From positions 870,001-934,000 of the forward strand of contig NC_088296.1 of assembly GCF_032854445.1 (NCBI RefSeq): 64,000 bases of DNA, in the 5' to 3' direction. Numbering within the stretch: position 1 is the stretch's first letter; every line of letters starts with the position of its first letter. The stretch comes from Liolophura sinensis. Lineage: Eukaryota; Mollusca; Polyplacophora; Chitonida; Chitonidae. The notes beneath the pieces are model-generated. The model ran no database searches. It saw nothing but the letters and a program-made list of their open reading frames with translations, and was not told the origin of the DNA. Shown here in pieces: positions 30,493 to 64,000 of this stretch. The translations under genes were made by a program, and so were the position numbers.

Positions 30493-30642
30493 TCACCATC
30501 CTCGGATGGACGTTAGCCAATCAGTGACAAGTTTGTAATCCGGGCACTCGGGAAGCCGTGTTTTCCGATTGGCCAGTTTGTCTCTCAGCTTTTCATACTT
30601 GTCAGTGGCGAGTTGGAGAAGATTTTCTCTGGACATTTCTCC
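30493..30642 (-). CDS. Nucleotidyltransferase exon 13 (terminal)
   Basis: Residues 570-618 ending ...DWLTSIRGW and stop TGA at 30495-30493. Acceptor TCTCTCTACAG. Confidence 0.88.
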   Translation of the reverse strand, partial: GEMSRENLLQLATDKYEKLRDKLANRKTRLPECPDYKLVTDWLTSIRGW

Positions 30643-33600
30643 CTGTAGAGAGAAATATCACACCTTCCATGTGTACAACAAGACAGGAAGCCAGCATAAG
30701 CTCGCCTTGAACTCACAGTAATGGGAATGGTAGGTTATTGTGCTGTGCTATGCTACCACTAGGTCATGAATACAACATGAAATAAGCTCGACTTGAACTC
30801 ACAGTAATGGGAATGGTAGGGTATTGTGTTGTGCTATGCTACCACTGGGTCATGAACACAACATGAAATAAGCTCGACTTGAACTCACAGTAATGGGAAT
30901 GGTGGGTTATTGTGCTGTGCTATGCTAGCACGCTAACAACTAGGTCATGAACACAACATGAAATAAACTCGACTTGAATTCACAGTAATGGGAATGGTAG
31001 GTTATTGTGCTGTGCTATGCTACCACTAGGTCATGAACACAACATGAAATAAGCTCGACTTGAACTCACAGTAAAGGGAACGGTGGGTTATTGTGCTGTG
31101 CTATGCTAGCACGCTAACAACTAGGTCATGAACACAACGTGAAATAAGCTCGACTTGAACTCACAGTCATGGGAATGGTAGGTTATTGTGTTGTGCTATG
31201 CTACCACTAGGTCATGAACACAACATGACATAAGCTCGACTTGAACTCACAGTCATGGGAATGGTAGGTTATTGTGTTGTGCTATGCTACCACTAGGTCA
31301 TGAACACAACATGACATAAGCTCGACTTGAACTCACAGTAAAGGGAACGGTGGGTTATTGTGTTGTGCTGTGCTAGCACGCTAACAACTAGGTCATAAAC
31401 ACAACGTGAAATAAGTTCGACTTGAACTCACAGTAATGGGAATGGTGGGTTATTGTGCTGTGCTATGCTACCACTGGGTCATGAACACAACTTGAAATAA
31501 GCTCGACTTGAACTCACAGTAATGGGAATGGTAGGTTATTGTGCTGTGCTATGCTACCACTAGGTCATGAACACAACATGAAATAAGCTCGACTTGAACT
31601 CACAGTAAAGGTAACGGTGGGTTATTGTGCTGTGCTATGCTAGCACGCTAACAACTAGGTCATGAACACAACGTGAAATAAGCTCGACTTGAACTCACAG
31701 TCATGGTAATGGTAGGTTATTGTGTTGTGCTATGCTACCACTAGGTCATGAACACAACATGACATAAGCTCGACTTGAACTCACAGTCATGGGAATGGTA
31801 GGTTATTGTGTTGTGCTATGCTACCACTGGGTCATGAACACAACATAAAATAAGCTCGACTTGAACTCACAGTAATGGGAATGGTGGGTTATTGTGCTGT
31901 GCTATGCTAGCACGCTAACCACTAGGTCATGAACACAACATAAAATAAGCTCGACTTGAACTCACAGTAATGGGAACGGTGGGTTATTGTGCTGTGCTAT
32001 GCTACCACTGGGTCATGAACACAACATGAAATAAGCTCGACTTGAACTCACAGTAATGGGAATGGTGGGTTATTGTGCTGTGCTATGCTAGCATGCTAAC
32101 CACTGGGTCATTTAACACAACATGAAATAAACTCGACTTGAACTCACAGTAATGGGAATGGTGGGTTATTGTGCTGTGCTATGCTAGCACGCTAACCACT
32201 AGGTCATGAACACAACGTGAAATAAGCTCGACTTGAACTCACAGTAATGGAACGGAGGGTTATTGTGCTGTGCTATGCTAGCACGCTAACCACTAGGTCA
32301 TGAACACAACATGAAATAAACTCGACTTGAACTCACAGTAAAGGGAATGGTGGGTTATTGTGCTGTGCTATGCTAGCACGCTAACCACTAGGTCATGAAC
32401 ACAACATGAAATAAACTCGACTTGAACTCACAGTAAAGGGAATGGTGGGTTATTGTGATGTGCTATGCTAGCACGCTAACCACTAGGTCATGAACACAAC
32501 ATGTGGGTTATTTGCATGCACCCCTGCCATGCTTTAGAAATCTGACACGTGCACTCTGGAGATTATCTACTTACTGCGTTACACCTTTGAGAACATAAAT
32601 TCTATGTTGACAATTACGGAAAAGAAACGGACTGATACTCAGGCTATATTGCACCTACCTGTAACTCGTCTTTGCGAACCCGCATGATGAAGTCTCTATC
32701 CTCTTGACATCGAACAGATGGAGTTTTACCCTCTAACATCTGCTCAACGCCACCCAGCTTGTGGAATATCTGTTAACATATATATTGGATCATAACATCA
32801 AAGCATGAAAATAGTGGACTGATTAAAGCACCGCACTAGTAACTGAACAAATGGACTTTAAGATCCAAAGGTTTTTGGATTTTCTTGGCCCAGACGGAAA
32901 AAGTTCTGGCTCGCTTTTACTATCACTTTTTTGGCCGATGAGGTGGCTTGATCGAATCCAGCTCTCGCTGTTTCGTCAATGGATGTGTTATGAGATTTGG
33001 TTGGTACCAGGTAAAGGTCTGTGCTTTACTCTGGGAACTCCAGATTCCTCCGCCTAATCCGATTTTCATCCACCTAATCCGATTTTAGCCATCTCATCCG
33101 TTTTCCCTCCCCTATTCCGCCGCCTAATCCAATTTTCCTCCACTTAACCTGATTTCCGCCATCTAATCCGTTTTCCGTCATCTAATCCGGTTTCCGTCAT
33201 CTAGTCCGGTTTCCGCCATCTAACCCGGTTTCCGTCATCTAATCCGGTTTCCTCCACCTAATCCTATTTTCGCCATCTAATCCGTTTTCCCTCACCTATT
33301 CCACTTTCCTCCACCTAATCCGTTTTCCTACACCTAATCCGGTTTCCGTCATCTAATCCGGTTTCTGCCATCTAATCTGGTTTCCTCCACCTAATCCTAT
33401 TTTTGCCATCTAATCCGTTTTCCCTCACCTACTCCACTTTCCTCCGCCTAATCCGTTTTCCTCCGCCTAATCCGTTTTCCTCCGCCTAATCCGGTTTCCG
33501 TCATCTAATCCGGTTTCCTCCATCTAATCCTATTTTCGCCATCTAATCCGTTTTCCCTCACCTATTCCACTTTCCTCCACCTAATCCGTTTTCCTACACC

Positions 33601-36600
33601 TAATCCGGTTTCCGTCATCTAATCCGGTTTCCGTCATCTAATCTGGTTTCCTCCACCTAATCCTATTTTCGCCATCTAATCCGTTTCCCTCACCTACTCC
33701 ACTTTCCTCTGCCTAATCCGTTTTCCTCCGCCTAATCCGGTTTCCGTCATCTAATCCGGTTTTCGCCATCTAACTCGATTTCCGTCATCTAATACAAGTG
33801 GACAATTCTTCAATACGTCGTTAAACACCAAGGAAATAAACAAAACCTAGACCTCACCAGCTGAACAGTTAATACAGCATTGTGGATATCAAGTTACTGG
33901 TAGGAGCTTCATGTAACACCACGTACACGTTCTACCAAGGCTGTTAACTGTATATTGGCACCATAGTCAGAGAACAGTGGAGGCAGTAGAATTTTCGCTA
34001 GGTGGCTTGAATTTAGCTGTTACATGCCATCTGTGGGCATGGAACTCTTATAAGGCGAAATCACACTTTAGCTCGAGATCGAGGTCAGGTCTTGACATTT
34101 TGAAGACAATTCACGTCGAGAAGAGGATTCCGCTTTACCTAAACTGCATTCCTATCTGTGCTTGATTAGTGAGACTGTAACATCAACCAAGCTGAGCTAT
34201 ATGTAGCTGGACACTACCAACGATAATGGCGTTACCTGATAGAACAGCTTCCTGTCTCTAGAAGTTCCTGCGAACTTCTCGGCTCTGATCATGTTGAAGT
34301 TGTTTTTGATCAAACCCAGATACTGCTGTATGGCTTTCTCTGTCACGAACTGATGACGTTTTGCTGACAAAACCTATATGAAGGAAGACAAAGATAAAAC
34401 TTAATTAAAAAACACCATTAATTATTTTTTTATCTTTTCAATTGTATAACTGCGATCGGCTGTGAAGAAAACTTGACAGATTGTAATAAACCACCGCTGT
34501 TCGAGAGCCATTTATGTTCGCAATGGGTGATCGGCGATAGCAAGAACGAATTGGCAAAATGAGCTAGCAGGAACCCCCATAGTTTTAAGCATAGGGCATG
34601 TATACTGGATGTGACACTAAGAATTTTGCCTTTGTCCCAGTTCATACAAGAAACTTGATGGGATTACACACAAACGTGCTGACTTTCAAATAAAGGTTCA
34701 AAACCCTGAATGATCTAAAACTACTTGGAAAACAGGACGAAGTTTGTGGAAACAATTTTATGTTTTACGAACAAGAAACATTTAACTGAAGTTGCCAGGA
34801 AGACATGCTTAATATATCGTTATATGTTAACTGTACAAAAGTTGTATATCATTCTTATAGCAACTGGGGCCCTTACTGACTCAGATGGTTAGAGCAAAAG
34901 CTTAATCCAACCATCAGGCCATTGACAGTGAGGATACGTCTTAGGTTCTAGCTCTCGCGGTTTCGGCTGCAGTTTTATTAATATGATTGGATTTATTTGA
35001 TTGGTGTTTTAACCCGTACTCAAGAATATTTCACGTTTAAAAACAGCGGCCAAAATTATGGTAGGGGACACCGGGCAGATCCCGGTTGAAACTCATGTCC
35101 ATCTGCAGGTTTCTGGTGACCTTGTCACGTACGGCCGATGAGGAAGTCAACATGAGCTGAACTCACAGTGACTGTATCAGCAGCTGCAGCTTTCCGTCAG
35201 GCTGTTTTTCAGGTACCTGGCGAAAGCTGCTTGTTTACTCTGGTTTCAGCACCAATCAGTCAAGCAATCATACGCGTAAGTACTGACAAAGGGTCTGTTG
35301 GATTCTAATACACCCACCTACACATACACTACATGCTGAATGCTGGTTGTAACAATTGTCCTAACATGCTGAATGCTGGTTGTAACAATTGTCCTAACAT
35401 GCTGTATGCTGGTTGTAACAATTGTCCTAACATGCTAAAGTCTGGTTGTAACAATTGTCCTAACACGCTGAATGCTGGTTGTAACAATTGTCCTAACTTC
35501 TGATTGCTGGTTGTAACAATTGTCCTAACATGCTAAAGTCTGGTTGTAACAATTGTCCTAACATGCTGATTGCTGGTTGTAACAATTGTCCTAACATGCT
35601 GATTGCTAGTTGTAACAATTGTCCTAACATGCTGGTTGTAACAATTGTCCTAACACGCTGATTGCTGGTTGTAACAATTCTCCTAACACACTGAATGCTG
35701 GTTGTAACAATTGTCCTAACTTCTGATTGCTGGTTGTAACAATTGTCCTAACATGCTAAAGTCTGGTTGTAACAATTGTCCTAACATGCTGATTGCTGGT
35801 TGTAACAATTGTCCTAACATGCTGATTGCTAGTTGTAACAATTGTCCTAACATGCTGGTTGTAACAATTGTCCTAACATCTGATTGCTGGTTGTAACAAT
35901 CGTCCTAATTTCAATATCAGGAATAATTCAACTTTTAAATAAAAGAGAAACTGTAACATACCTTCCATTCTTCACTGACATAATCAACGCTGTCCACAAA
36001 GAGCAGCTACAAAAAACAAGCATCAAAAATTATTACAAGCATTCACTAACTTCTCTTGCAAAGTTGAAATGCTTACATGTAAAGTAAGGTTTGCCTTTGA
36101 AGCCATTTAACAACATGTTCAGGGCTATATGAGTTCAGACTGGTCACTCACACTGACACCATTGTACATGTGTCATGTTTAGGGCTATCACAGTAAAAGT
36201 CCACCTGACAGTCATGACAAACTTAGACTGGTCATTGACACTGACACCCATGTACATGTATCATGTTTAGGGCCATCACGGTAAAAGTCCACCTGACAGT
36301 CATGACAAACTTAGACTGGTCACTCACACTGACACCATTGTACATGTATCATGTTTAGGGCTATCACCGTAAAAGCCCATCTGACAGTCATGACAAACCT
36401 AGACTGGTCACTCACATTGACACCAATGTACACGTATCATGTTTCATGTTTAGGGCTATCACCGTAAAAGTCCATCTGACAGTCATGACAAACCTCGACT
36501 GGTCACTCACATTGACACCACTGTACACGTATCATGTTTAGTGCTATCACGGTAAAAGTCCATCTGACAGTCATGACAAACCTAGACTGGTCACTCACAT

Positions 36601-39600: not shown

Positions 39601-42600
39601 GTTTCATGTTTAGGGCTATCACCGTAAAAGTCCACCCGACAGTCATGACAAACCTAGACTCGTCACTCACATTGACACTATTGTACACGTATGAAGTACA
39701 AGTAGACAATCACTTAGAAAGATGAAAGCTTTCAGACCAGTGTTTGTGCCTGTTTTGAACATGTCTCGCCTCCACTGTTTGTCTGATTCACCTCCAATAT
39801 GAATCTGCATCATCTCCATTAGTTGTCTCATTCACCTCTAATATGACTGCCTCACCTCCATTGTTTGTCTGATTCACCTCCAGTATGAATCTGCCTCACC
39901 TCTTTTGTTTGTCTGATTCACCTCAAATATGAATCTGCCTCACCTCTTTTGTTTGTCTGATTCACCTCCAATATGAATTTGCCTCACCTCCACTGGACTA
40001 ACTCCAGTATGAGTATGACTCACCTCCAGTATGAGTCTGACTAACTCCAGTATGAGTATGACTCCAGTATGAGTCTGACTCACCTACAGTATGAGTTTGA
40101 CTCACCTCCAGTATGAGTCTGACTCACCTCCAGTTTGAGTCTGACTCACCTCCAGTATGAGTCTGACTAATTCCAGTATGAGTCTGACTAACTCCAGTTT
40201 GAGTCTGACTCACCTCCTGTATGAGTCTGACTCACCTCCAGTTTGAGTCTGACTCACCTCCAGTTTGAGTCTGACTCACCTCCAGTTTGAGTCTGACTCA
40301 CCTCCAGTATGAGTCTGACTCACCTCCAGTATGAGTCTGACTAACTCCAGTATGAGTCTGACTCACCTCCAGTATGAGTCTGACTAACTCCAGTATGAGT
40401 CTGACTCACCTCCAGTATGAGTCTGACTAACTCCAGTATGAGTCTGACTCACCTCCAGTATAACCACACTACATTTGAGTAACATTTCGCAGAACATCCG
40501 AGCCTCATAAACTCCGTACTCAAAAGCTTTCTCTGGGCCTCGACTTTCGTGTATTTCTGTCAGCCGTTTACAAGATGACAAAATCGTCTGAAAAAGAAAC
40601 CACTTGTCACTTACTGAATTATGTAATTAAATCAAATCAAATCAATTTAAGTGAACATTCATGTAATTATAAACATGACGTGTATATCAGCCAAAATAAC
40701 AGGTCTGTGACTTCAACAAACAAGAAATCCCCACAAATCAGGCCACAAGAGGGCTGAATCTTCATGTCAGCACAAGCCGGGTTTCAGCGTGTAAAAAATA
40801 TAACCCCAACCCAAGTACATTATGTCGACACCATGTTTACAAAACTATTAGCTTCTCACTATTGCTAAATTATCCTTAAACATATCCGAAAAGCCATCTC
40901 CATATTTTGTAAAATAAGACTGTGTTCTGCTTAATTCATGTTTCTTGTCATTTGGCCTCTTTCATATCTTAACAAGGGTATTTTTTCATTGTTTGGTTAT
41001 TAAACAGCTTTCATCATTATTTCTATCACATCTATGATGGCCTCAACTTGTGTCCTGTTGCTTCCACGTACATGTGAATTGGCAAATTGTTGGATGTGTA
41101 TGCAACTGTTGAGAAATCAGATACTCCTAGTAATTTAGAATGTAAATTTTTACCACAAAAATTAAAACTTCCCTTTGGAGAAAGTGGTATAATCCAAGTG
41201 AACATGGTGAAATATTATTCAACATGGACAATATAGGTCTTACTATTTTCTCAAAAAAGGACCCATGGTATATTTCCGGTTTTTTTTTCAAAACTCTCAA
41301 CCAATGGTTTCTTCAAGCTTGAACTTCATAATTGTAGAGCACATCCAACCGCATCATTTTCAATTTAGTCAGAAATCATGCAGCCTCAAAATGTGTCTAT
41401 AACAATATAGTGTACCTGTGTGTGTGCACGATAAATCACCACATAGTCCACGTCACTGTCAGGGGTAGACAACCCATACAGGTGGCTGCCAGCACGCGCA
41501 ATCATCAGAATCTGACTTGGGTCCAACTTACTGATATGGTCACCGATACTTTCCATCATGCTCACAAGGGAGCGCTGCTCCTCCTCAGAGACACCTGGTG
41601 GTGGAAAGGGGCAAACTTTTAACTGTAACATTGACTGTAATATGCAATATTTGGACACTTACCATTAAGTGTAGACAAGTACCCTCAGTTCTTGCTAATG
41701 CAATGATTGGGGGATTTAGGGCCTACTGTGTGGACAACACAAGCATTCAGATCTTCACACTCAAAGTTCATGCAATGTCCCACTACAAACCAGACCTGAA
41801 CAAGCTCAAGGGAAATTGGCTTATGATAAGATGACATCTATACATCAGCACTGGACAGCTGCTCCCGTTACACTCATTTGGCTGTACATGAGAAAGTAAC
41901 TCATAATCTAAGGCTATGTATTCTACGTTACCATGGTTTCCTGCACACACATGACTGACTTTGTAGCCTATAACTGAAATATTCTTGAGCTAAGCATTTC
42001 CTATAAACCCTAAGCAAAGAAATGGCCAGTTACCTGCAGCTATGGTCAGTAAGTTCATTATTCAATAAGTTAATTAGTAAGGTAGAGTAACAGCAAACAA
42101 ACAACAAACAAAACAAGTATTTATTTGACTGTTGGTTAAAGCTGTGATGTACGCAAGGTTTTGTCGCTTGTATGACAATCGTCAGCTTTATGGGAGAGTT
42201 GAGAAAAAACCACTGACCTTCAGCAGTTAACTGACAAATCTTCTGACTTTTAACCTTTCAATGACCTTTTACACAGCCCCAATTAATACAGAATAACGTG
42301 CCAATATCCACTTTATCCCTACCAGCCCCAACTCCCCCCCCCCCCCCCCACCCCTGCCTTCAACTTTCCAAAAAGAGAAAACTTACCTGGAAATGGTGTC
42401 AATGCCTGGCCTTTGACCCTGACCTTGGCCATCCATTTACCCAGAATTCCCTCCACATGCTGCTGAGGTGTGAAGTTGAATCCCTTGAGGTCAAGGCTGA
42501 GCTGATCCCTCCATGAAATCACCAGGTCAAAAATCTCTTGTTTAGAAACATCAGGATTCTGTAGCACGAATCATTCATATGTTTACTGACTGGCTGATTG

Positions 42601-45600: not shown

Positions 45601-48600
45601 GAAATAGGCACATATATATAATGTATATAATAGCTAGAAGTCCTGAAATAGGCACTGTGTAGTAATGTGTATAACAGCTAAAAGTTCTGAAATAGACACT
45701 GTATAGTAATGTTTATAATAGCTAGAAGTTCTGAAATATGCACTGTATAGTAATGTATATAATAGCCAGAAGTTCTTAAATAGGCACTGGCTCAGTCGAT
45801 TAGTGCGCTAGCACAGGGTAATGACCGAGGAACCTCTCACCAATTCGGTCGCTGTGAGTTCATGTCCAGCTCATGCTGGCTTCCTCTCCGGCCGTAAGTG
45901 GGAAGGTCTGCGAGCAACCTGCGGATGGTCGTGGGTTTCCCCCGGGCTGTGTCCTGGTTTCCACCCACCATAACGCTGGCCGCCGTCGTATAAGTGAAAT
46001 ATTCTTGAATACGGCGTAAAACACCAATCAAATAAATAAGTAAATAAATAGGCACTGTATGGTACTGTGCCATTACTGTAGTTTGTGGCTGAAAGTATTT
46101 CTCAAGGACTTCAAGTATCTAAAAATGTACCTCCCCAGAAACCTTCATGAACCACTCAGCTTTAATAATGATATTCATTGATGACATTTTTGTAGTTTTT
46201 TATCAGTCCATTTAGAACATTTAACAATAAAAGATGTCCAACAAATTCAAATAAACTCTACACCAAGGCCATTAAAAACTCTCAACAAACTTCAAACTTA
46301 CTCTCAAGAGCAAGGAAAGTCTTGTTTCCTGATTGCTTACTTAGCCAAGTAGTTTGCTAACGGCTTGCTAATACTGAACTAGTGGTAATTTAGTGGCTTT
46401 CAAGTAGTGAGCTAATAGCTTGTGAGCATTTTTTCAGCTAGTGGCTTATGAGGGAACAGCTAGTGGTTAGTGAATGATGAGCTAGTGGCTTGTGAGTGAT
46501 GAGCTAGTGGAGCTAGTGGCTTGTGAGTGATGAGCTAGTGGCTTGTGAGGGAAGAGCTAGTGGCTTGTGAGTGATAAGCTAGTGGTTAGTGAGTGGTGAG
46601 CTGGTGGCTTGTGAGGGAAGAGCTTGTGGTTAGTGAGTGGTGAGCTAGTGGCTTGTGAGTGATGAGCTAGTGGTTAGTGAGTGGTGAGCTAGTGGCTTGT
46701 GCGTGATGAGCTAGTGGTTAGTGAGTGGTGAGCTAGTGGCTTGTGAGTGATGAGCTAGTGGCTAGTGACTGATGAGCTAGTGGTTAGTGAGTGGTGAGCT
46801 GGTGGCTTGTGAGTGATGAGCTAGTGGCTTGTGAGGGAAGAGCTAATGGCTTGTGAGTGATGAGCTAGTGGTTAGTGAGTGGTGAGCTAGTGGCTTGTGA
46901 GTGATGAGTTAGTGGCTTGAGAGGGAAGAGCTATGGCTTGTGACTGATGAGCTAGTGGTTAGTGAGTGGTGAGCTAGTGGCTTGTGAGTGATGAGCTAGT
47001 GGCTTGTGAGGGAATAGCTAGTGGCTTGTGAGTGATGAGCTAGTGGTTAGTGAGTGGTGAGCTAGTGGCTAGTGACTGATGAGCTAGTGGTTAGTGACTG
47101 ATGAGCTAGTTGCTTGTGAGTGATGAGCTAGTGGTTAGTGAGTGGTGAGCTTGTGGCTTGTGAGTGATGAGCTAGTGGCTAGTGACTGATGAGCTAGTGG
47201 CTTGTGAGTGATGAGCTAGTGGTTAGTGAGTGGTGAGCTGGTGGCTTGTGAGTGATGAGCTAATGGCTTGTGAGTGATGAGCTAGTGGCTAGTGACTGAT
47301 GAGCTAGTGGCTTGTGAGTGATGAGCTAGTGGTTAGTGAGTGGTGAGCTAGTGGCTTGTGAGTGATGAGCTAGTGGTTAGTGAGTGGTGAGCTAGTGGCT
47401 TGTGAGGGAAGAGCTAGTGGCTTGTGAGTGAAGAGCTTGTGGTTAGTGAGTGGTGAGCTTGTGAGTGATGAGCTAGTGGCTAGTGACTGATGAGCTAGTG
47501 GCTTGTGAGTGATGAGCTAGTGGTTAGTGAGTGGTGAGCTAGTGGCTTGTGAGGGAAGAGCTAGTGGCTTGTGAGTAATGAGACAGTGGTTAGTGAGTGG
47601 TGAGCTAGTGGCTTGTGAGTGATGAGCTTGTGGTTAGTGAGTGGTGAACTAATGGCTTGTGAGGGAAGAGATAGTGGCTTGTGAGTAATGAGACAGTGGT
47701 TAGTGAGTGGTGAGCTACATGTAGTTGGTTGTGAGGCTGACCTAGTTGCTTGTGATGGAAGAGCTAGTAGCTTGAGGGGTGAGCTATTACTTCTGAATGG
47801 TGAGCTAGAGGCTTGCAAAGTGGTGAGCTAGTAGTTGAAGAACGGTAAGCTACTTGCTTGTGAGTGGAGAGCTACATTTAGTAGCTTGCTATTGGTGATC
47901 TAGTTGTTTGCAAGTGATTTAGTCAGATGGTTGTGAGTGGTGAGCTAGTCGCTTTCTTGTGGTGAGTTATTTGTCTATCACTGAGAACATATAACCCTGT
48001 TAACAGGTCTACATTTTGTAAATCAAACTCACCCATAAGCTGTTTATGATCCAGCATCTCTCTCAGTGACTTCCAGTCCTCGTCTTCAAACAACACTGCC
48101 CCCTGGTGGCAGAACAGTGCCTCAGCAAATCTTGACTTCCCTTTCGCCAGACAGTGTACCAGATGGTAAAGTTCTATAGCGTACAGCCAACCCTGAAGAA
48201 AATGCAGAAATGTATAGGTATGTATGCCTGGGGTTTAACGTCGTACTTACCAAGTCTTCAGTCATATGACGCTGAGGAGTCATTAGGTGTGTGTACATAT
48301 ACTCTGACTAGCCCATGCAACCAAAGTGCTGCTGCCACTGAAGTATCATGTCAAAGACACCAAAAACAACACCCCACCCAGTCACATTATACTGACACCA
48401 GGCCAACCAGTCCTGTTTCCTTGCTCTAACCTCTAACTGCTGAGCACCAAATGAAGCAGCAGCAAGTAGCCCATGAAAGTCTTCTGTATAACTTGACTTG
48501 AATTTTGTCCTGTGGTTTCTCAACTTTGAGGCAAATGCGCTAAGCATTAGGCCACCAAAGCAGCCAAAGCAGATTTTTTCCCTGAAAACATGCCAGACTA

Positions 48601-51600
48601 TGTTGAATGTATGTTCTTAGATCAGCTACTCAACCTATTCAACTCATGATCTTTACTTGAAAAACTTAAAAGCCAGATCCTTGTCTCTAATTCATCGGAA
48701 ATCAGAGCATCCAGTTTAACCCAACAAAACTTTGGAATATCACTAATAACTTTCCCACCTGTGACAAGTTACAGTTGTTTGGAACGTTACCGACAAACTT
48801 TGGCGTGTCACTATTAACTTTCCCACCTGTGACAAGTTACAGTTGTTTCGAACGTTACCAACAAACTTTGGCATCTCACTATTAACTTTCCCACCTGTGA
48901 CAAGTTACAGTTGTTTGGAACGTTACCGACAAACTTTGGCGTGTCACTATTAACTTTCCCACCTGTGACAAGTTACAGTTATTTGGAACGTTACTGACAA
49001 ACTTTGGCATCTCACTATTAACTTTCCCACCTGTGACAAGTTACAGTTGTTTCGAACGTTACCGACAAACTTTGGCATCTCACTATTCCCTTTCCCACCT
49101 GTGACAAGTTACAGTTATTTGGAACGTTACCGACAAACTTTGGCGTGTCACTATTAACTTTCCCACCTGTGAAAAGTTACAGTTGTTTGGAACGTTACCG
49201 ACAAACTTTGGCGTGTCACTATTAACTTTCCCACCTTTGACAAGTTACAGTTATTTGGAACGTTACCAACAAACTTTGGCGTGTCACTATTAACTTTCCC
49301 ACCTGTGAAAAGTTACAGTTGTTTCGAACGTTACCGACAAACTTTGGCATCTCACTATTAACTTTCCTACCTGTGACAAGTTACAGTTATTTGGAACGTT
49401 ACCGACAAACTTTGGCGTGTCACTATTAACTTTCCCACCTGTGACAAGTTACAGTTATTTGGAATGTTACCGATAAACTTTGGCGTGTCACTATTAACTT
49501 TCCCACCTGTGACAAGTTACAGTTATTTGGAACGTTACCAACAAACTTTGGCGTGTCACTATTAACTTTCCCACCTGTGACAAGTTACAGTTATTTGGAA
49601 CGTTACCAACAAACTTTGGCATCTCACTATTAACTTTCCAACCTGTGACAAGTTACAGTTATTTGGAACGTTACCGACAAACCTTGGCGTGTCACTATTA
49701 ACTTTCCCACCTTTGACAAGTTACAGTTATTTGGAACGTTATCGACAAACTTTGGCATCTCACTATTAACTTTCCCACCTGTGACAAGATACAGTTGTTT
49801 CGAACGTTACCAACAAACTTTGGCATCTCACTATTAACTTTCCCACCTGGAACTGGGGTGCAGGGAACTGGGGTGCAGGACCTGGGGTGCAGGGACCTGG
49901 TGTGCAGGGAACTGGGGTGCAGGGAACAGGGGTACAGGGAACTGGGGTGCAGGACCTGGGGTGCAGGGAACTGGGGTAGAGGGAACAGGGGTAGAGGGAA
50001 ATGGGGTGCAGGCAACTGGGGTGCAGTGAAGTGGGGTACAGGGAACTGGGGTACAGTGAACTGGGGAGTAGGGAACTGGGGTGCAGTGAACTGGGGTGCA
50101 GGATCTGGGGTGCAGGGAACTGGGGTAGAGAGAACGGGGGTAGAGGGAAATGGGGTGCAGGCAACTGGGGTGCAGTGAACTGGGATACAGGGATCTGGGG
50201 TACAGTGAACTCGGGAGCAGGGAACTGGGGTACAGTGAACTGGGGTGCAGGACCTGGGGTGCAGGGAACTGGGGTAGAGGGAACGGGGGTAGAGGGAACG
50301 GGGGTAGAGGGAAATGGGGTGCAGGCAACTGGGGTGCAATGAACTGGGGTGTAGGGAACAGGGGTGCAGGGAACTGGGTTGCAGGAACTGAGGTGCAGGG
50401 AACTGGGGTGCACAGAACTGGGGTGCAGGAACTGGGGTGAGGGAACTGGGGTGCAGGGAACTGGGGTGCAGGAACTGGGGTGCAGGAACTGGGGTGCAGG
50501 GAACTGGGGTGCAGGGAACTGGGGTACAGGGAACTGGGTGCAGGGAACTGGGGTGCAGGGAACTGAGGTGCAGGGAACTGGGGTGCAGAGAACTGGGGTG
50601 CAGGGAACTGGGGTGCAGGGAACTGGGGTACAGGGAACTGGGGTGCAGAGAACTGGGGTGCAGGGAACAGGGGTGTAGGGAACTGGGGTACAGAGAACTG
50701 GGGTGCAGGGAATTGGGGTACAGAGAACTGGGGTACAGGGAACTGGGTTGCAGGGAACTGGGGAGCACAGAACTAGGGTGCAGGAACTGGGGTGCAGGGA
50801 ACTGAGGTGCAGGGAACTGGGGTGCAGGGAACTGGGGTGCAGGGAACTGGGATGTCAGTGCCCTTCACCAGTTATAATACCTTATTACAAACTTCTAATT
50901 TCAACCTCTACTTTGACTCCCTTTCATAATTTTGTTATTTATCTAATTAATGGTTGCACCAAACTTAATTTGCCATACATAAGAATTTTTCACTTATGCA
51001 TTCGTGTGAATAAATTATTATGTGAAACATAATAATTTTAAGTATTAAAAACAGAGGATGGTCTGTTGTTATAGCAACCCACCATATCAATGACATCACT
51101 CTGGTCTCTCAGATGTGTGTTGGCTGGAGACAGGAACTTGTCGTCATGGGAGACATACACGATGAAGAGGACATTGTGTCGTGCCTGTTCCCCTCGCTCT
51201 CGCTGGGAGGCCCCATACCATGGACATGTAAGCAGCACACCACACAACAGGCGCTTACACTGATCTGTCAATCAACAGGAATCAATTGAAGTCTCATTTT
51301 TATTCATCTATGTTTTATTTGATTGTTTTGTTTTAAAGGCATCTAAAACTCTTTATATATCATGGGATAAATAAATTTCTTTTAAATATCACACCCTTAT
51401 TCTACATGTAAGTCTAGCTCTCTTTATACTGCATTAATGCCATTGTCCCAGCTGAATAATATTTAACATATACAAAGGCAGGCATCTGACAAACCTCCTA
51501 ACTTACAGCCACAGTCAAAGCAGCCAGAGCTGGATTTGAGCATGTGACCTTGTTGTTCAAGGACATAATCATTGCAGAGTAAGCCGTCTGAGTCTCAGTC

Positions 51601-54600
51601 TAAGAGGGTCTGATCAGGTCACAAGACAACAGAAGGTGAATGTTTGGAAAAGATTTTCAAGTTGCTGCAGCACATAATGGCAAATCTTCCAGTCATTCAC
51701 ATTATTCAAAATGTTATTGGGGCCTCCATGGCCAAGATGGCCAGAATGCCAACATGGCGCAATGACCCAGGAGCCTCTAACCAATGCAGTGAAGGCGAGT
51801 TCAAGTCTCATGCTAGTTTTCTCTCCATCCGTATGTGGGTAGATCTGCCAAAAACTGCCATTGTATAAATGAAACATTCTTTAGTATGGTGCAAAACACA
51901 AATCAAATAAATCAATCAAATAAAGAAAAATGTTCCTAGAATGTTATTTTGCAGATGGCAGTTCTGTCCTGCAACAAACAATTGGTCAGGGTCAAAATAC
52001 TTTTGGGTGCAGGACATTTTCCTAGTTCTTTTGTTTATGTCCAGACTTTACATGATAAACAATACCTTTAAACAGCTTCTCTATAAGACTTGTGAACTTT
52101 TCCCGCACTGCTGTTGTCAATGATGCTGGGACGTGCATCAGAGTGAGTTGTTTCAACTCTAGGTGCAGGTTGTCATGGTGATTCACTGTTGTTGGTTCAA
52201 AGTCCAGGTGAGAGCCTTCCAGTCTGGACTTGATGTCCCGCAGTTTGTCCAGGGCTTCTCCACTCTCATCCCGTACTTCAGTAAAATCAAAAATTCCTCT
52301 ATATTGTCACTGGTGACATGAAATTCTGAGAAAGATTTCTCCACGATATGTCTGAAATATTCTCTATGTAATATGAAGCCATGATCATTCATTTATTACA
52401 TGACAATTTGTGTTCCTCATATGACAATGTATGATCATAGCTTACATATTACATCACACATGTAATATACATTTCCAGATATACTCGATCATTTTGATCA
52501 TATTTCAGATTTACAGACCTATACATTATTTCAAGATCTTCTTACACTTTTGATCATTTCTTTATCTAATGAATAGGCTATTCTGATGATGTCTGACATT
52601 TCTTGAGTCCGTCAAAACTTTGCTCATATCTTGCTTGTCAACTTGTCATTTTTTGGTTACATTTCAGAATTTGATAATCATTTTTATTCAAGTTGTAGTT
52701 TGCATTAACATTACAAACATAACTTCTGGCTCCAGATCTAATCATGATTTTACTCATGTGTTTCATTTACCAGATGATCATTTTTATTACGTCATATAAC
52801 AGTTCTTGATTTGATCAACATTTTTACAATATTTTACATTTACTGATCTTCATTATTAGCCCATTAGTCATATCACATATTTCTGATCTTGATAACTGAA
52901 TTTCACCTAAAGTTTGGTACGTAAAACTGCACTTTCAGAAACACTTAAAGGCCTTAACATGATATGAAAAAACATTATTCTATTTTACCTAAAACTCCGA
53001 CTTGGTCTTAGAAGGTGGATGAATCAATTAGAATCAAGCAAAATGTATCACTCAAAATATAATAAACTTCAGACGAAGTGGTCAGTACCAGTATACCTAC
53101 ACTTCTTGCACTAATCATCAGTGCATCTTTGACCATGCCTTACATCACCAAATCTGATCATCTGTTGTCCAGATCTAGTTATTAATTTGTGATCAAAGAT
53201 GGCACTTCTGGTTCTTGTTACCACTTTGGTCGTACCTTTTCTTGATCCAACGATCATTTTTACCAAAGCCTAACATTTTCAGATCTGATCATTGTTAGGC
53301 TATGTAATCCATACCTTGTTCTGTTCACATTTTATGGTTACCCTATAATGAGCATGCGCACTAATAATACTGACAGTACCATAGAGTAGCCGTGCGGATG
53401 TGAACAGTGAATGTCAGAGCACGTGCACTAAGTCATACTGACAGTACCATAGAGTAGCCGTGCGGATGTGAACAGTGAATGTCAGAGCACGTGCACTAAG
53501 TCATACTGACAGTACCATAGAGTAGCCGTGCGGATGTGAACAGTGAATGTCAGAGCACGTGCACTAAGTCATACTGACAGTACCATAGAGTAGCCGTGCG
53601 GAAGTGAACAGTGAATGTCAGAGCATGCGCACTAATAATACTGACAGTACCATAGAGTAGCCGTGCGGATGTGAACAGTGAATGTCAGAGCATGCGCACT
53701 AATAATACTGACAGTACCATAGAGTAGCCGTGCGGATGTGAACAGTGAATGTCAGGGCATGCGCACTAATAATACTGACAGTACCATAGAGTAGCCGTGC
53801 GGATGTGAACAGTGAATGTCAGGGCATGCGCACTAATAATACTGACAGTACCATAGAGTAGCCGTGCGGATGTGAACAGTGAATGTCAGGGCATGCGCAC
53901 TAAGTCATACTGACAGTACCATAGAGTAGCCGTGCGGAAGTGAACAGTGAATGTCAGAGCATGCGCACTAATAATACTGACAGTACCATAGAGTAGCCGT
54001 GCGGATGTGAACAGTGAATGTCAGAGCATGCGCACTAATAATACTGACAGTACCATAGAGTAGCCGTGCGGATGTGAACAGTGAATGTCAGAGCATGCGC
54101 ACTAATAATACTGACAGTACCATAGAGTAGCCGTGCGGATGTGAACAGTGAATGTCAGGGCATGCGCACTAATAATACTGACAGTACCATAGAGTAGCCG
54201 TGCGGATGTGAACAGTGAACGTCAGGGCATGCGCACTAAGTCACACTGACAGTACCATAGAGTAGCCGTGCGGATGTGAACAGTGAATGTCAGAGCACGT
54301 GCACTAAGTCATACTGACAGTACCATAGAGTAGCCGTGCGGATGTGAACAGTGAATGTCAGAGCATGCGCACTAATAATACTGACAGTACCATAGAGTAG
54401 CCGTGCGGATGTGAACAGTGAATGTCAGGGCATGCGCACTAATAATACTGACAGTACCATAGAGTAGCCGTGCGGATGTGAACAGTGAACGTCAGGGCAT
54501 GCGCACTAAGTCACACTGACAGTACCATAGAGTAGCCGTGCGGATGTGAACAGTGAATGTCAGAGCACGCGCACTAAGTCATACTGACAGTACCATAGAG

Positions 54601-56298
54601 TAGCCGTGCGGATGTGAACAGTGAATGTCAGAGCATGCGCACTAATAATACTGACAGTACCATAGAGTAGCCGTGCGGATGTGAACAGTGAATGTCAGGG
54701 CATGCGCACTAATAATACTGACAGTACCATAGAGTAGCCGTGCGGATGTGAACAGTGAACGTCAGGGCATGCGCACTAAGTCACACTGACAGTACCATAG
54801 AGTAGCCGTGCGGATGTGAACAGTGAATGTCAGAGCACGTGCACTAAGTCATACTGACAGTACCATAGAGTAGCCGTGCGGATGTGAACAGTGAATGTCA
54901 GAGCATGCGCACTAATAATACTGACAGTACCATAGAGTAGCCGTGCGGATGTGAACAGTGAATGTCAGGGCATGCGCACTAATAATACTGACAGTACCAT
55001 AGAGTAGCCGTGCGGATGTGAACAGTGAACGTCAGGGCATGCGCACTAAGTCACACTGACAGTACCATAGAGTAGCCGTGCGGATGTGAACAGTGAATGT
55101 CAGAGCACGTGCACTAAGTCATACTGACAGTACCATAGAGTAGCCGTGCGGATGTGAACAGTGAATGTCAGAGCACGTGCACTAAGTCATACTGACAGTA
55201 CCATAGAGTAGCCGTGCAGATGTGAACAGTGAATGTCAGAGCATGCGTACTAATAATACTGACAGTACCACAGAGTAGCTGTGCGGATGTGAACAGTGAA
55301 TGTCAGGGCATGCGCACTAATAATACTGACAGTACCATAGAGTAGCCGTGCAGATGTGAACAGTGAATGTCAGAGCATGCGCACTAATAATACTGACAGT
55401 ACCATAGAGTAGCCGTGCAGATGTGAACAGTGAATGTCAGAGCATGCGCACTAATAATACTGACAGTACCATAGAGTAGCCGTGCGGATGTGAACAGTGA
55501 ATGTCAGAGCATGCGCACTAATAATACTGACAGTACCATAGAGTAGCCGTGCGGATGTGAACAGTGAATGTCAGAGCTGGGTACAATAAATGTTGTCATC
55601 AAGTAACAGTCGGTATGTTAACAATCATCATTTTGATCATGCATACATACCTTGTTCTTCCAAACGCCGTACTCAAGAATATTTCACTTATACGACGGCG
55701 GCCAGCATTATGGTGGGAGGAAAACGGGCACAGCCCGGGGGAAACCCACGATCATCCGCAGGTTGCTGGCAGACCTTCCCACATACGGCCGGAGAGGAAG
55801 CCAGTATGAGCTGGACTTGAACTCACAGCGACCGCATTGGTGAGAGGCTTCTGGGTCATTATGCTGTGCTAGCACGCTAACCGACTGAGCCACTGACGCC
55901 CCGTTCTTCTTCCAAATGAGGTTATTGGCTCATGTGATTGTAACGTTCCTTACCATGTGATGGTAACGTTCCTTAGCTGTGATTGAGCTTACATTTTCAA
56001 ACCTGATCAACCCCTCAACTGGTCATGGGTTTCCACTGGGCTTCATCTGGTTTCCTCCCACCATAAGGCCGGCCATCGTGGTATAAGTGAAATATTCTTG
56101 AACACATCCTAAACCATCAATTAGACAAATTGATAAGTTAACCAAACCTGATCATCAGTTTGATTGAGCCTTACATTTCTTGATGTGATCGTCTTGTTGA
56201 GCGTGTCGCCGTAGTGACAGATGTAGTCTTTCTTGAGCCTGCACACTGTCCGTGGCCATGGCAACCAATGATAAATCTACAGGTTTGACTTCATCCAT
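30493..56298 (-). CDS. RlaP/COG3541-like predicted nucleotidyltransferase, 13 coding exons, 618 aa
   Basis: Thirteen exons on the - strand join with matching intron phases into one 618-codon frame: 56298-56175, 52275-52066, 51264-51083, 48192-48033, 44066-43943, 42940-42814, 42558-42387, 41594-41416, 40587-40453, 36006-35962, 34373-34236, 32769-32659, 30642-30493. All introns are GT-AG. The C-terminal half (residues about 390-618) has the polymerase-beta-type nucleotidyltransferase signature GSHLYGLSTPDSDVD (G402, S403, D414, D416), then YEARMFCEMLLK...ILELLF, which fits the YxLRKFxxLxLKGNPxxLELLF pattern I associate with COG3541/RlaP. RlaP proteins are predicted from comparative genomics to add nucleotides during RNA repair; the substrate here is unknown. 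The N-terminal half (about 112-366) aligns to the second half by eye but lacks the motif. An upstream 5' exon is implied by the acceptor at 56344. Exon structure is strong; the biochemical role is inferred. Confidence 0.85.
30683..32505. repeat. ~86-94-bp minisatellite made of SINE B heads
   Basis: About 20 units in intron 12. Each has CTCGACTTGAACTCACAGTA and TTATTGTGCTGTGCTATGCT, and about half also have AGCACGCTAACCACTAGGTC. This is the reverse complement of the tRNA-like head of SINE B (compare GGACTTGAACTCACAGCGAC and GCTAGCACGCTAACCGACTG at 55814-55890). At the left edge, GGAAGCCAGCATAAGCTCGC preserves SINE sequence outside the unit, which marks the origin. Confidence 0.9.
32659..32769 (-). 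CDS. Nucleotidyltransferase exon 12
   Basis: Residues 533-569, IFHKLGGVEQMLEGKTP then DRDFIMRVRKDELQ. Acceptor TGTTAACAG, donor TTACAG|GTAGGT. Confidence 0.88.
32770..32854. other. Intron 11 start
   Basis: Unique intron sequence between exon 12 and the SINE-like fragment. Confidence 0.5.
32855..33045 (+). mobile_element. Third repeat family (D), SINE-like
   Basis: GATGAGGTGGCTTGATCGAA and TCCAGCTCTCGCTGTTTCG (B-box-like), then CCAGGTAAAGGTCTGTGCTT, TACTCTGGGAACTCCAGATT and CCTCC. A second fragment with TTCTAGCTCTCGCGGTTTCG lies at 34868-34980. The tRNA relationship is inferred from the head only. Confidence 0.5.
33035..33795. repeat. ~19-bp minisatellite seeded at the end of repeat D
   Basis: About 40 units of TCCGCCTAATCCGTTTTCC with variants (CCGTCATCTAATCCGGTTT; CCCTCACCTATTCCACTTT). 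A longer block of about 190 bp repeats near 33260, 33380, 33530 and 33650. The first unit is the last CCTCCGCCTAATCC of family D. Confidence 0.88.
33800..33845 (+). mobile_element. SINE tail fragment
   Basis: ACAATTCTTCAATACGTCGT followed by TAAACACCAAGGAAATAAAC resembles the 3' end of mollusc-type SINEs and sits at the right edge of the 19-bp array. Confidence 0.45.
34236..34373 (-). CDS. Nucleotidyltransferase exon 11
   Basis: Residues 487-532, KAIQQYLGLIKNNFNMI and RDRKLFYQ. Acceptor CTTCATATAG, donor TATCAG|GTAACG. Confidence 0.88.
34868..34980 (+). mobile_element. Repeat D fragment
   Basis: ACTCAGATGGTTAGAGC (A-box-like) and TCTAGCTCTCGCGGTTTCGG. It lies in intron 10. Confidence 0.4.
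34983..35165 (-). mobile_element. SINE family B, diverged
   Basis: TTATTTGATTGGTGTTTTAA, CGTACTCAAGAATATTTCAC, AACATGAGCTGAACTCACAG: reverse-complement family B from tail to B box. Confidence 0.75.
35320..35912. repeat. ~33-bp minisatellite array
   Basis: About 18 units of GCTGGTTGTAACAATTGTCC followed by TAACATGCTGATT, with shorter units (ACATGCTGGTTGTAAC). A block at about 35497-35640 repeats at about 35715-35860. It ends 50 bp from exon 10. Confidence 0.93.
35962..36006 (-). CDS. Nucleotidyltransferase exon 10 (45-bp micro-exon)
   Basis: Fifteen residues, LLFVDSVDYVSEEWK (472-486), in phase 0 on both sides. Acceptor TTTTTTGTAG, donor AAG|GTATGT. It is too short for ordinary frame searches and sits between two large arrays. 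Confidence 0.85.
36120..39692. repeat. 88-bp minisatellite array
   Basis: About 36 units of GGGCTATCACCGTAAAAGTC, CACCTGACAGTCATGACAAA and CCTAGACTGGTCACTCACAT, filling most of intron 9. A 97-bp variant duplicates ATCATGTTTC. It is interrupted by SINE A at 37225. Units left of the SINE mostly read CTGGTCACTC; units right of it more often read CTCGTCACTC. Confidence 0.95.
37225..37590 (+). mobile_element. SINE family A, full length, inside the 88-bp array
   Basis: Head GGATAGCACAGTTGGTAGAG, GATCAATCCTTGATCGAGTC, body GGCTTACTTGCCTTCGGTAA, tail TACGACGTTAAACCCCAAGC and (CACT)n. The host word ACATTGACACCA is duplicated on both sides (37213-37224 and 37591-37602). Confidence 0.9.
39770..40009. 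repeat. Diverged left part of the splice-site array
   Basis: Units with TTTGTCTGATTCACCTCCAA and TATGAATCTGCCTCACCTC, longer and more diverged than the 22-bp units to the right. Confidence 0.75.
40010..40452. repeat. 22-bp minisatellite repeating the exon 9 splice donor
   Basis: About 20 units of TATGAGTCTGACTCACCTCC-AG, with TAACTCC variants. The word ACTCACCTCCAGTAT also spans the exon 9/intron boundary (40447-40461), so on the - strand most units contain the end of exon 9 and its donor, CTGGAG|GTGAGT. Confidence 0.9.
40453..40587 (-). CDS. Nucleotidyltransferase exon 9
   Basis: Residues 427-471, including FEYGVYEARMFCEMLLK. Acceptor CTTTTTCAG, donor CTGGAG|GTGAGT. The donor is the first member of a minisatellite that repeats this same splice site (see 40010-40452). 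Confidence 0.92.
40588..41415. other. Intron 8, no array
   Basis: Ordinary AT-rich intron sequence. AACCCCAACCCAAGTACATT-like words near 40803 faintly resemble the element at 48360. Confidence 0.5.
41416..41594 (-). CDS. Nucleotidyltransferase exon 8 (catalytic motif)
   Basis: Residues 367-426. It carries the catalytic signature: G402-S403, then D414-x-D416 (metal-binding aspartates) on the strand DYVVIY. Acceptor TTTCCACCACCAG, donor ACACAG|GTACAC, which is a weaker donor than the others. Confidence 0.92.
41595..42386. other. Intron 7
   Basis: No array or SINE; contains the poly-C tract at 42334. Confidence 0.5.
42334..42349 (+). repeat. Poly-C tract in intron 7
   Basis: 16 consecutive C (G on the transcribed strand), about 35 bp before exon 7's donor side. 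Confidence 0.9.
42387..42558 (-). CDS. Nucleotidyltransferase exon 7
   Basis: Residues 310-366, ending the N-terminal repeat with VEGILGKWMAKVRVKG, comparable to the C-terminal end of the protein. Acceptor TGCTACAG, donor TTTCCAG|GTAAGT. Confidence 0.88.
42814..42940 (-). CDS. Nucleotidyltransferase exon 6
   Basis: Residues 267-309, LLNNLHNLLKGQRP and onward. Acceptor CTGTTACAG, donor TACAAG|GTAAGT, phase 0 at the end. Confidence 0.87.
43010..43290. repeat. ~36-bp tandem array in intron 5
   Basis: About seven units of TCTGTAAGAATTGGAACATC and TGTGAGATGTAGAACC, beginning about 70 bp from exon 6. Confidence 0.85.
43606..43822. repeat. Short direct duplication in intron 5
   Basis: CACCAGTCATGCCCATAAAC followed by CTGGCTGTGTGATATGT occurs at about 43627 and 43780, flanking a C-rich stretch (43710-43762). 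Confidence 0.8.
43943..44066 (-). CDS. Nucleotidyltransferase exon 5
   Basis: Residues 226-266, with a basic stretch AKKRKTGKMG. Acceptor ATTGCCAG, donor TTCCG|GTAAGT (phase 2). Confidence 0.87.
44238..44725. repeat. 25-bp minisatellite array
   Basis: About 19 units of TATCCTACATTAGGTAATGT-AACGG with two alternating forms (ATTAGG/ATTGGG, AACGG/GACAG). Confidence 0.93.
44726..45778. repeat. 44-bp minisatellite array
   Basis: About 24 units of TAATGTATATAATAGCTAGA-AGTTCTGAAATAGGCACTGTATAG type, directly abutting the 25-bp array. Continues as a half unit after the SINE at 46047. Confidence 0.93.
45790..46046 (+). mobile_element. SINE family B, full length
   Basis: Head GCTCAGTCGATTAGTGCGCT (A box), GTGAGTTCATGTCCAGC (B box), middle GGGAAGGTCTGCGAGCAACC, GGTCGTGGGTTTCCCCCGGG, end TTGAATACGGCGTAAAACAC and an (AAATA)n tail. 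The host word AATAGGCACTG is duplicated at 45779-45789 and 46047-46057. Confidence 0.92.
46430..47960. repeat. 22-bp minisatellite array
   Basis: About 65 units of GAGCTAGTGGCTTGTGAGTG-AT alternating with GAGCTAGTGGTTAGTGAGTG-GT, degrading to the right. It lies in intron 4, ending about 70 bp from exon 4. Confidence 0.94.
48033..48192 (-). CDS. Nucleotidyltransferase exon 4
   Basis: Residues 173-225 including YAIELYHLVHCLAKG and RFAEALFC, matching the helix that follows the catalytic strand in RlaP-type proteins. Acceptor TTTTCTTCAG, donor ATGG|GTGAGT. Confidence 0.88.
48225..48460 (-). mobile_element. SINE-like element with family A tail
   Basis: GGGGTTTAACGTCGTACTTA and TTCAGTCATATGACGCTGAG match the family A tail in reverse. 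The rest (CACCCAGTCACATTATACTG, GGCCAACCAGTCCTG) differs from family A, so it may be a related family sharing the 3' end. Confidence 0.6.
48715..49848. repeat. 68-bp minisatellite array
   Basis: About 17 units of AACTTTCCCACCTGTGACAA, GTTACAGTTATTTGGAACGT and TACCGACAAACTTTGGCGTG, with GGCGTGTCAC/GGCATCTCAC and GTTATTTGG/GTTGTTTCG forms alternating in blocks. Confidence 0.94.
49849..50852. repeat. 15-bp G-rich minisatellite with ~148-bp higher-order repeat
   Basis: About 66 units of GGGAACTGGGGTGCA. A block with TAGAGGGAAATGGGGTGCAG and GCAACTGGGGTGCAGTGAAC recurs near 49993, 50142 and 50308. The + strand is strongly G-rich. It adjoins the 68-bp array without a gap. The - strand proline/serine pentapeptide frame (356 codons) is periodicity. 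Confidence 0.94.
51083..51264 (-). CDS. Nucleotidyltransferase exon 3
   Basis: Residues 112-172. Contains CPWYG (125-129) and RHNVLFIVYV (140-149), the places where the second half has GSHLYG and DYVVIY. Acceptor ATTGACAG, donor GATATG|GTGGGT, phases 1 and 0. Confidence 0.85.
51725..51915 (+). mobile_element. SINE family B, diverged
   Basis: GCCAACATGGCGCAATGACC, CCTCTAACCAATGCAGTGAA, GTTCAAGTCTCATGCTAG and AAACACAAATCAAATAAATC in intron 2. Confidence 0.7.
52066..52275 (-). CDS. Nucleotidyltransferase exon 2
   Basis: Residues 42-111, charged and helical (EALDKLRDIKSRLEG). Acceptor TTTTACTGAAG|TACGG, chosen because phase 1 joins exon 1; an alternative AG at 52299-52300 would break phase. Donor TTTAAAG|GTATTG. 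The longest open frame through this stretch is a different, wrong frame. Confidence 0.75.
52400..53335. repeat. Degenerate GATCAT-rich intron sequence
   Basis: Words like TTACATTTC-AGATCTGATCAT and TTGATCATTTTT recur irregularly (52495, 52720, 52770, 53150, 53280 and again 55980, 56150). This looks like a very old tandem array in intron 1. Confidence is low because no fixed period is measurable by eye. Confidence 0.4.
53340..55575. repeat. 67/68-bp minisatellite with 270-bp higher-order repeat
   Basis: About 33 units of TGACAGTACCATAGAGTAGC, CGTGCGGATGTGAACAGTGA and ATGTCAGAGC, ending in either ACGTGCACTAAGTCATAC (68 bp) or ATGCGCACTAATAATAC (67 bp). TCACACTGACAGTACC occurs at 54241, 54511, 54781 and 55051, exactly 270 bp apart, so four-unit blocks were amplified recently. 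Confidence 0.95.
55665..55903 (-). mobile_element. SINE family B, full length
   Basis: Reads in reverse: CGCCGTACTCAAGAATATTT, CATTATGGTGGGAGGAAAAC, CGCAGGTTGCTGGCAGACC, GGACTTGAACTCACAGCGAC (B box), GTGCTAGCACGCTAACCGAC (A box). This is the best reference copy for the SINE-derived arrays. Confidence 0.9.
56023..56140 (+). mobile_element. SINE family B, 3' fragment
   Basis: GGTCATGGGTTTCCACTGGG, CTCCCACCATAAGGCCGGCC, GTGAAATATTCTTGAACAC. It ends close to exon 1 of the nucleotidyltransferase gene. Confidence 0.7.
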
Positions 56299-63334: not shown

Positions 63335-64000
63335 AACACGTGGGAAACATTATACAAATTGTTGAACAAGAAAAATTAGGATCACTTACCCTCGTGTTTT
63401 GTAATTGATGGGCGCAAGTCAAGAGATAAATCTGAAATAGCTAAGGGTTTCAACAAATATTTTAGCTCTTTGGCCTCAAATCTTGAGTCTACTATACCTT
63501 CAGTGGAGAAAATCTTTTCAGATCATCTTGGAAATCCTAATGACAGTAATTTCTCATTTCCATACATTTCACCAACAGACATCTTTAATGCTCTAACATC
63601 CTTGAAATCTAATGCTGCTGCTGGACTAGATGGTATCCATATGTCTAATGTGAAACTTGTTTTTGACTGTATATCGGCTCCTCTAGCCCACATTAATTAT
63701 CTGTCGTTCTCATCAGGTTCAGAAGGAACCATTCCACCCAGTACGCCGCCTGCTCATTATTTGACAAACTTATGACCGCTATGGAGAACAAGAATTATAC
63801 TGTGGCTATCTTCCTTGACTTATCAAAGGCTTGTGACACTGTGAATCATAACATTCTTCTTTCAAAACTAGATCACTATGGCTTCCGGGACCTGTCAAAG
63901 GACTGGCTGGGTAGCTACCTGTCAAACCGTACATGATGTACATCCTTCAGCAATGTATTGTCTGAATCCACAGACGTTACATGTGGTGTACCTCAACGGT
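63335..64000 (+). pseudogene. Non-LTR retrotransposon reverse transcriptase, decayed, partial
   Basis: Three stretches in related frames read as LINE reverse transcriptase: a region before the polymerase domain with an in-frame TAG near 63376; TDIFNALTSLKSNAAAGLDG at about 63573-63632; then, after a frame change with loss of the intervening segment around 63710-63725, RRNHSTQYAA, IFLDLSKACDTVNH and LLSKLDHYG. The last run is RT domain with the usual F-x-D catalytic-strand context (FLDLSKAxDT). An in-frame TGA occurs at about 63936, and the sequence continues past the window with CGVPQ near the end. Residue patterns point to a Jockey/CR1-like clade. It is non-functional as seen. Confidence 0.85.

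Follow-up and report, generated by a model that had tools for sequence, protein, structure and literature searches.

A Liolophura sinensis gene predicted to join an RlaP-type nucleotidyltransferase to a degenerate copy of its own fold

The DNA considered here (the window) is a stretch of 64,000 nucleotides from contig NC_088296.1 of Liolophura sinensis, whose genome comprises 609 Mb in 632 contigs. The sequence itself also marks the host as very probably a mollusc: PF14830, the hemocyanin domain of molluscs, has eight clustered matches in the genome, and one unit matched hemocyanins in the PDB that include KLH1 and come from molluscs. On its minus strand, from 56298 down to 30493, 13 exons can be rebuilt from their splice sites, with GT-AG boundaries throughout and consistent phases, into a frame of 618 residues that is followed by TGA. 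The single protein of 618 residues is the product of a predicted transcript, deduced from splice logic and homology. The original prediction had joined 13 exons into one protein, and the rebuilding returned identical coordinates; the residue positions that it gave were also correct (CPWYG at 125–129, RHN at 140–142, YAIELY from 176, GSHLYG at 402–407, and D414/D416). The exons are given below, where the N-half and the C-half are the N-terminal and C-terminal halves of the protein.

Exon 1, 56175..56298, minus strand: residues 1–41; start codon; N-terminal extension without a known domain; donor AAAT/gtaagg
Exon 2, 52066..52275, minus strand: residues 42–111; first helix of the N-half from residue 89; acceptor ctgaag/TACG picked by phase
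Exon 3, 51083..51264, minus strand: residues 112–172; predicted degenerate nucleotidyltransferase core (TCPWYG, RHN)
Exon 4, 48033..48192, minus strand: residues 173–225; helix YAIELYHLVHCLAKG..ALF, common to the N-half and the C-half
Exon 5, 43943..44066, minus strand: residues 226–266; helical domain of the N-half; basic stretch KKRKTGK at 244–250
Exon 6, 42814..42940, minus strand: residues 267–309; helical domain of the N-half
Exon 7, 42387..42558, minus strand: residues 310–366; end of the N-half and linker
Exon 8, 41416..41594, minus strand: residues 367–426; intact GSHLYG..D414-x-D416 core
Exon 9, 40453..40587, minus strand: residues 427–471; E449, the likely third acid; first helix of the helical domain
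Exon 10, 35962..36006, minus strand: residues 472–486
Exon 11, 34236..34373, minus strand: residues 487–532; D526-x-K528
Exon 12, 32659..32769, minus strand: residues 533–569
Exon 13, 30493..30642, minus strand: residues 570–618 and TGA; family end motif LPECPDY

The least certain junction is the start of exon 2, because the acceptor at 52275 was chosen as the phase-compatible one; the first acceptors considered, near 52300, were ruled out by a wrong phase or an in-frame stop. A further exon candidate at 48311–48616, between exons 3 and 4, was omitted, as these two exons join in phase without it and align with the C-half.

Codon usage was scored with a table trained on one hemocyanin locus only, and by this measure the exons of the N-half look coding, and as coding-like as those of the C-half. 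The N-half scored 0.179 in frame versus −0.205 and −0.250 in the other forward frames and 0.075 on the reverse strand, and the C-half scored 0.133; among 59 intron windows, one reached the value of the N-half and two that of the C-half.

The introns are rich in repeats. Minisatellite arrays (score of at least 300, summed by hand) fill 57% of the span 30493–56298, or approximately 14,690 of its 25,806 bases, with units that differ among introns. A tRNA-derived short interspersed element can be recognized by eye at 37230–37570, within the 88-base minisatellite of intron 9, and ARAGORN reported no tRNA genes in the window.

Judged by its sequence, the C-half is a clear RlaP-type nucleotidyltransferase in which GS and D414-x-D416 are intact. 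Residues 369–618 matched the Pfam family RlaP (PF10127) at E 1.2e-14 with 55.1 bits, above the curated cut-off of 23, and matched phrog_388 in PHROGs at E 4e-35; all 24 members of an alignment of phage, viral, and bacterial relatives also match PF10127. When the C-half is aligned with 16 of its relatives, the residues G402, S403, G407, D414, D416, R525, D526, K528, G570, and L599 are invariant. The features to look for in an RlaP protein are present, namely the GS and D-x-D metal-binding motif (G402, S403, D414, D416) and a helical C-terminal domain with the D-x-K and LP motifs (D526, K528, L599, P600). Within D526-x-K528, the lysine is invariant in the 24-member alignment, and both the aspartate and the lysine are invariant in the 17-member alignment. 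E449, which lies ahead of the first helix of the helical domain, aligns with a column that is D in 81% of the 16 relatives and is the likely third carboxylate. Across the 40 columns in which one residue occurs in at least 80% of the 16 relatives, the C-half retains 19 and the N-half 12.

Relatives of the C-half were found in 1457 of 50,697 phage records and in 9 of 72,556 plasmid records (E ≤ 0.01). Used as a single sequence against viral_contigs, the C-half returned no matches; alignment queries did find relatives there. A PADLOC match of the C-half to PDC-S09 was disregarded (E 0.037).

A sequence search for a solved RlaP structure found none, the best matches being an origin recognition subunit (E 0.15) and an editosome TUTase (E 0.037). 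The C-half was modeled with AlphaFold2 (mean pLDDT 85, pTM 0.81), and structural neighbors of the model were sought in the PDB with VIA and among viral proteins with BFVD. The nearest solved structure was HalB (Z 10.6, 3.9 Å over 175 residues), followed by LinB (over 96 residues) and the bacterial nucleotidyltransferase-like protein 3c18, both at Z 9.1; the title of one HalB entry names a complex with oligodeoxyadenylate. With HalB as the nearest solved structure, one might think of a nucleotide-signal enzyme of the OAS or Hailong kind with the same two-unit anatomy, where the N-terminal unit would sense nucleic acid and the C-terminal unit would make an oligonucleotide. We consider this unlikely, given that the sequence of the C-half belongs to PF10127, that neither OAS1-C nor another sensor domain occurs among the Pfam matches at E ≤ 10, and that a Z near 10 reflects a common fold and not a function.

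Another way to read the locus is that two neighboring genes have been misjoined, with exons 1–7 encoding one protein and exons 8–13 a stand-alone RlaP that starts at Met379, Met380, or Met397. Exon 8 does contain in-frame ATG codons, intron 7 contains AATAAA, and the transcript is a predicted one. However, the AATAAA of intron 7 says little, because introns 1, 2, 6, and 10 carry it as well, and the donor and acceptor of this intron (792 bases) are both of phase 1 and match each other. The halves also appear homologous (see below), which is what an internal duplication would produce, although the same holds for genes in tandem. We regard misjoining as improbable.

The N-half (residues 89–359) had no match in Pfam at E ≤ 10, and is therefore below the cut-off of PF10127, and none in NCBIfam. 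In PHROGs it matched phrog_17400 only (E 0.013), and no relatives of it were found in viral_contigs or, at E ≤ 1, in phages. The comparison with the PF10127 profile that had been proposed for each half thus divides them: the C-half passes, whereas the N-half is without a match.

Compared directly, the two halves appear to resemble each other beyond chance, modestly but repeatedly, the likeness being weak but significant. In global pairwise alignments, none of 1000 shuffles of the N-half reached the observed score at any of three gap settings (z 3.9–4.2), and in local alignments 3, 0, and 0 of 1000 did so. When the C-half was shuffled in place of the N-half, at one global setting, 1 of 1000 reached the score. 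BLASTP of the N-half against the C-half gave E 0.019 (for one comparison) with 22% identity over 156 columns, and the identity in the MAFFT alignment is 16%.

Profile-led global alignment, in which the controls were shuffles, permutations of 12-residue blocks, and decoy ORFs, was run in three ways. Against the C-half alone, the score of the N-half was reached by 0/400 shuffles, 0/400 block permutations, and 0/45 decoys; against the family without the C-half, by 0/400, 2/400, and 0/45, respectively; and against the family plus the C-half, by 1/400, 1/400, and 0/45. With hhalign, the N-half scored 28.8 (probability 16%) against a 40-sequence family profile that excluded the C-half, where the best of 200 shuffles scored 23.1. 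The two halves as single sequences scored 17.6, which is not significant and lies within the range of the shuffles (best of 200: 25.1). HMMER placed the 40-sequence profile on a single stretch of the N-half, approximately residues 159–218, with 7.2 bits, a value without a shuffle control, and a semiglobal alignment with free ends was flat (N-half 3.5, with 214 of 400 shuffles as high).

In the alignments made by programs, the blocks YAIELY..ALF, EDEDWKSL, and F..LLNNLHNLLKGQRP come in the same order in both halves, and the alignments are collinear over the whole length. The original prediction had aligned the halves by eye, and this alignment is borne out by the shared block order and by the global shuffles. 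From these comparisons, we take the N-half to be a probable homologue of the RlaP family and do not class it as a member.

The halves were modeled separately and compared via their shared structural matches. The model of the N-half (pLDDT 76, pTM 0.75) was built on an alignment to which 17 further rows had been added, 16 from RlaP relatives and one from the C-half. In both models, strands and helices follow each other in nearly the same order, the N-half having one short helix more and two fewer. Viral matches in BFVD at E ≤ 0.001 numbered 38 for the model of the C-half and 26 for that of the N-half, and 25 of these 26 are within the 38. Against solved folds, VIA gave the N-half Z 8.4 with HalB and Z 9.1 with 3c18 (values below 8 may reflect a mere common arrangement), and Foldseek against the PDB gave low TM scores, 0.28–0.47 for nucleotidyltransferase rows. 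The models suggest that the N-half shares the RlaP fold; this fold evidence carries no control with unrelated sequences and is not independent of the sequence alignment, because the model was built on RlaP relatives.

Among the BFVD matches of both half-models are baculovirus HE65 and proteins of giant viruses that bear the annotation endonuclease V or exonuclease, which suggests that these viral proteins contain RlaP-like units.

Could the likeness be due to chance, the N-half being a helical region of other origin or a nucleotidyltransferase of another kind? The missing Pfam match, the low MAFFT identity, the single-sequence hhalign score inside the shuffle range, the flat free-end test, and a model guided by RlaP rows would all agree with this. 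We nonetheless find it quite unlikely in view of the global shuffles (0/1000 at three settings, z about 4), the block permutations against the C-half (0/400), the hhalign score against the family without the C-half, which beats all 200 shuffles, and the collinearity over the whole length.

The N-half had been described as motif-dead. Where the C-half has GS, the N-half has Thr124-Cys125 (TC), and residues 130–152 contain no [DE]x[DE], so the paired acids are lost whichever alignment is used. The exact counterpart of DxD does depend on the alignment: MAFFT places it at E137/A139, and pairing the strands by eye places it at H141/V143. The loss of the acids therefore stands, but the pairing of DxD with RHN, as first proposed, is alignment-dependent. 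D-x-K is absent from the N-half too, by alignment, and Asp171 may lie at the position of the third acid. An N-half that is devoid of GS and of the paired acids would be unable to bind metal in the usual way. Its six exons nevertheless remain open, splice in phase, and use codons in a coding-like way, which argues that the protein of the N-half is still made and selected. That the N-half is a functionless, decaying relic in an otherwise single-unit enzyme, as the loss of the GS and paired-acid motifs might suggest, is very improbable, because at an identity of approximately 16% neutral decay would have destroyed the open frame, the splice sites, and the coding-like usage that its six stop-free exons retain.

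The N-half is closer to the C-half than to other relatives, which favors an internal duplication over a fusion with a distant RlaP. All 19 relatives of up to 300 residues scored above the shuffle mean against the N-half (mean z 1.6, best 3.0, six above 2), and the C-half, at z about 4, is beyond any of them. The positions of the introns mostly differ between the halves and, because they mostly do not coincide, the duplication event is, on this evidence, an old one. In one pair (after residue 309 and after residue 569, both phase 0) the positions agree to about one residue; as this is only one pair, coinciding introns were set aside as too weak a proof of duplication.

Searching the genome with each half returned its own exons only, six matches apiece, a search that a highly diverged second gene could escape, and PF10127 found exon 8 only in the 609 Mb. 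A tandem RlaP within one ORF was seen in none of 116 RlaP ORFs from 114 loci (phage, viral, and bacterial; duplicates included). GS..DxD is carried by 82 of 82 unique RlaP ORFs, in a survey that is biased in that two of the three locus-yielding scans used the D-x-D pattern beside D-x-K and one used D-x-K alone.

Two bacterial metagenome genomes (L014 and L016) each have two adjoining RlaP genes with the motif intact in both. In the RlaP gene of Pectobacterium phage DU_PP_IV (L003:968-2374), a long insert that begins with Cys follows directly after the GYD of GYDTK and looks intein-like by eye; in Pfam, this protein gave the RlaP match and a sub-threshold nucleotidyltransferase match only (E ≤ 0.01).

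Our preferred reading, to which we give a probability of roughly 0.5, is that a single-copy gene encodes an RlaP enzyme whose active unit is joined to an old copy, inactive and retained for RNA binding or scaffolding. The C-terminal unit would combine a Pol-beta fold with a helical domain, would possess the catalytic residues, and would add nucleotides to the 3′ ends of damaged or cleaved RNA ahead of ligation, as has been proposed for phage RlaP. The N-terminal unit, without catalysis of its own, would serve as a platform for RNA or would pack against the active unit, the role ascribed to the non-catalytic units of TUT4/TUT7 and OAS2/OAS3. We infer the enzyme activity, RNA as the substrate, and the role of the N-half; the part in RNA-end repair is ascribed to the C-half because RlaP is so described in a section of PMC7824862, where the prediction is that it puts back nucleotides missing from RNA ends so that these can then be ligated, and where it appears as a partner of RNA ligases in phage RNA repair. 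The net charge of residues 88–358 is +6 and that of the C-half −1; the charge of +6 and the stretch KKRKTGK would fit RNA binding by the N-half, without proving any.

An enzyme of this kind should have a ligase as its partner. A T4-type RNA ligase was sought in the same genome with PF09414 and PF09511, without a match; this negative says little, as the search ran exon by exon and PF09511 was silent in all of the control genomes too. RLIG1 would be the obvious candidate: a portion of PMC11494293 presents it as a human T4-like RNA ligase, likens it to T4 Rnl1, and postulates T4-like tRNA repair in humans. With an RlaP joined to a pseudo-enzyme twin in an animal, that postulated pathway would gain a concrete, testable molecule.

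How does the predicted protein compare with known systems? The C-half resembles RlaP (PF10127; COG3541) in family score, in the GS..DxD, D-x-K, and LPxxPD motifs, and in fold; the difference is that two units, one of them motif-dead, are found here in an intron-rich animal gene, whereas the profile occurs twice in none of the 116 fetched RlaP ORFs. HalB (Hailong) and 3c18 are among the nearest solved folds of both half-models but are bacterial proteins with 10–12% identity. In OAS2 and OAS3, only the C-terminal unit is active. These proteins share with ours the tandem arrangement of Pol-beta units, which in OAS2/OAS3 are duplicated head-to-tail according to a passage of PMC4420275, but they belong to another family, OAS1-C is not among the Pfam matches of our protein at E ≤ 10, and there is no evidence of activation by dsRNA here. 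TUT4 and TUT7, as outlined in part of PMC6232586, likewise have a non-catalytic nucleotidyltransferase-like unit adjoining the catalytic one, but their zinc fingers and PAP-associated domains are absent here (Pfam, E ≤ 10). A match of the whole protein to an MTPAP-like palm is sub-threshold (13.8 bits, cut-off 27). COG3541 is also matched by T4-type nrdC.11 proteins, as stated in a passage of PMC1524935. The literature covered, to which the founding RlaP paper does not belong, describes no animal RlaP. The new part would be the joining of an RlaP enzyme to a dead twin; the inactive-plus-active layout itself is known from other animal RNA enzymes. If confirmed, the protein would be a further, separate dead-plus-active Pol-beta tandem beside TUT4/TUT7 and OAS2/OAS3.

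A bolder version is tentative and, in our view, doubtful: that animals, or at least this mollusc, have an RNA-damage enzyme of the phage RNA-repair family RlaP whose inactive twin serves as an RNA-binding or sensing unit, so that the dead-plus-active layout of OAS and TUT proteins evolved here independently. If true, this would connect RNA repair or immunity in animals with a counter-attack pathway of the phage type.

Two further features lie elsewhere in the window. The open frame at 63380–63772 resembles a reverse-transcriptase fragment by eye, with no Pfam match at E ≤ 0.01, and an ORF at 5352–6017 on the plus strand encodes a SPRY domain (38.5 bits).
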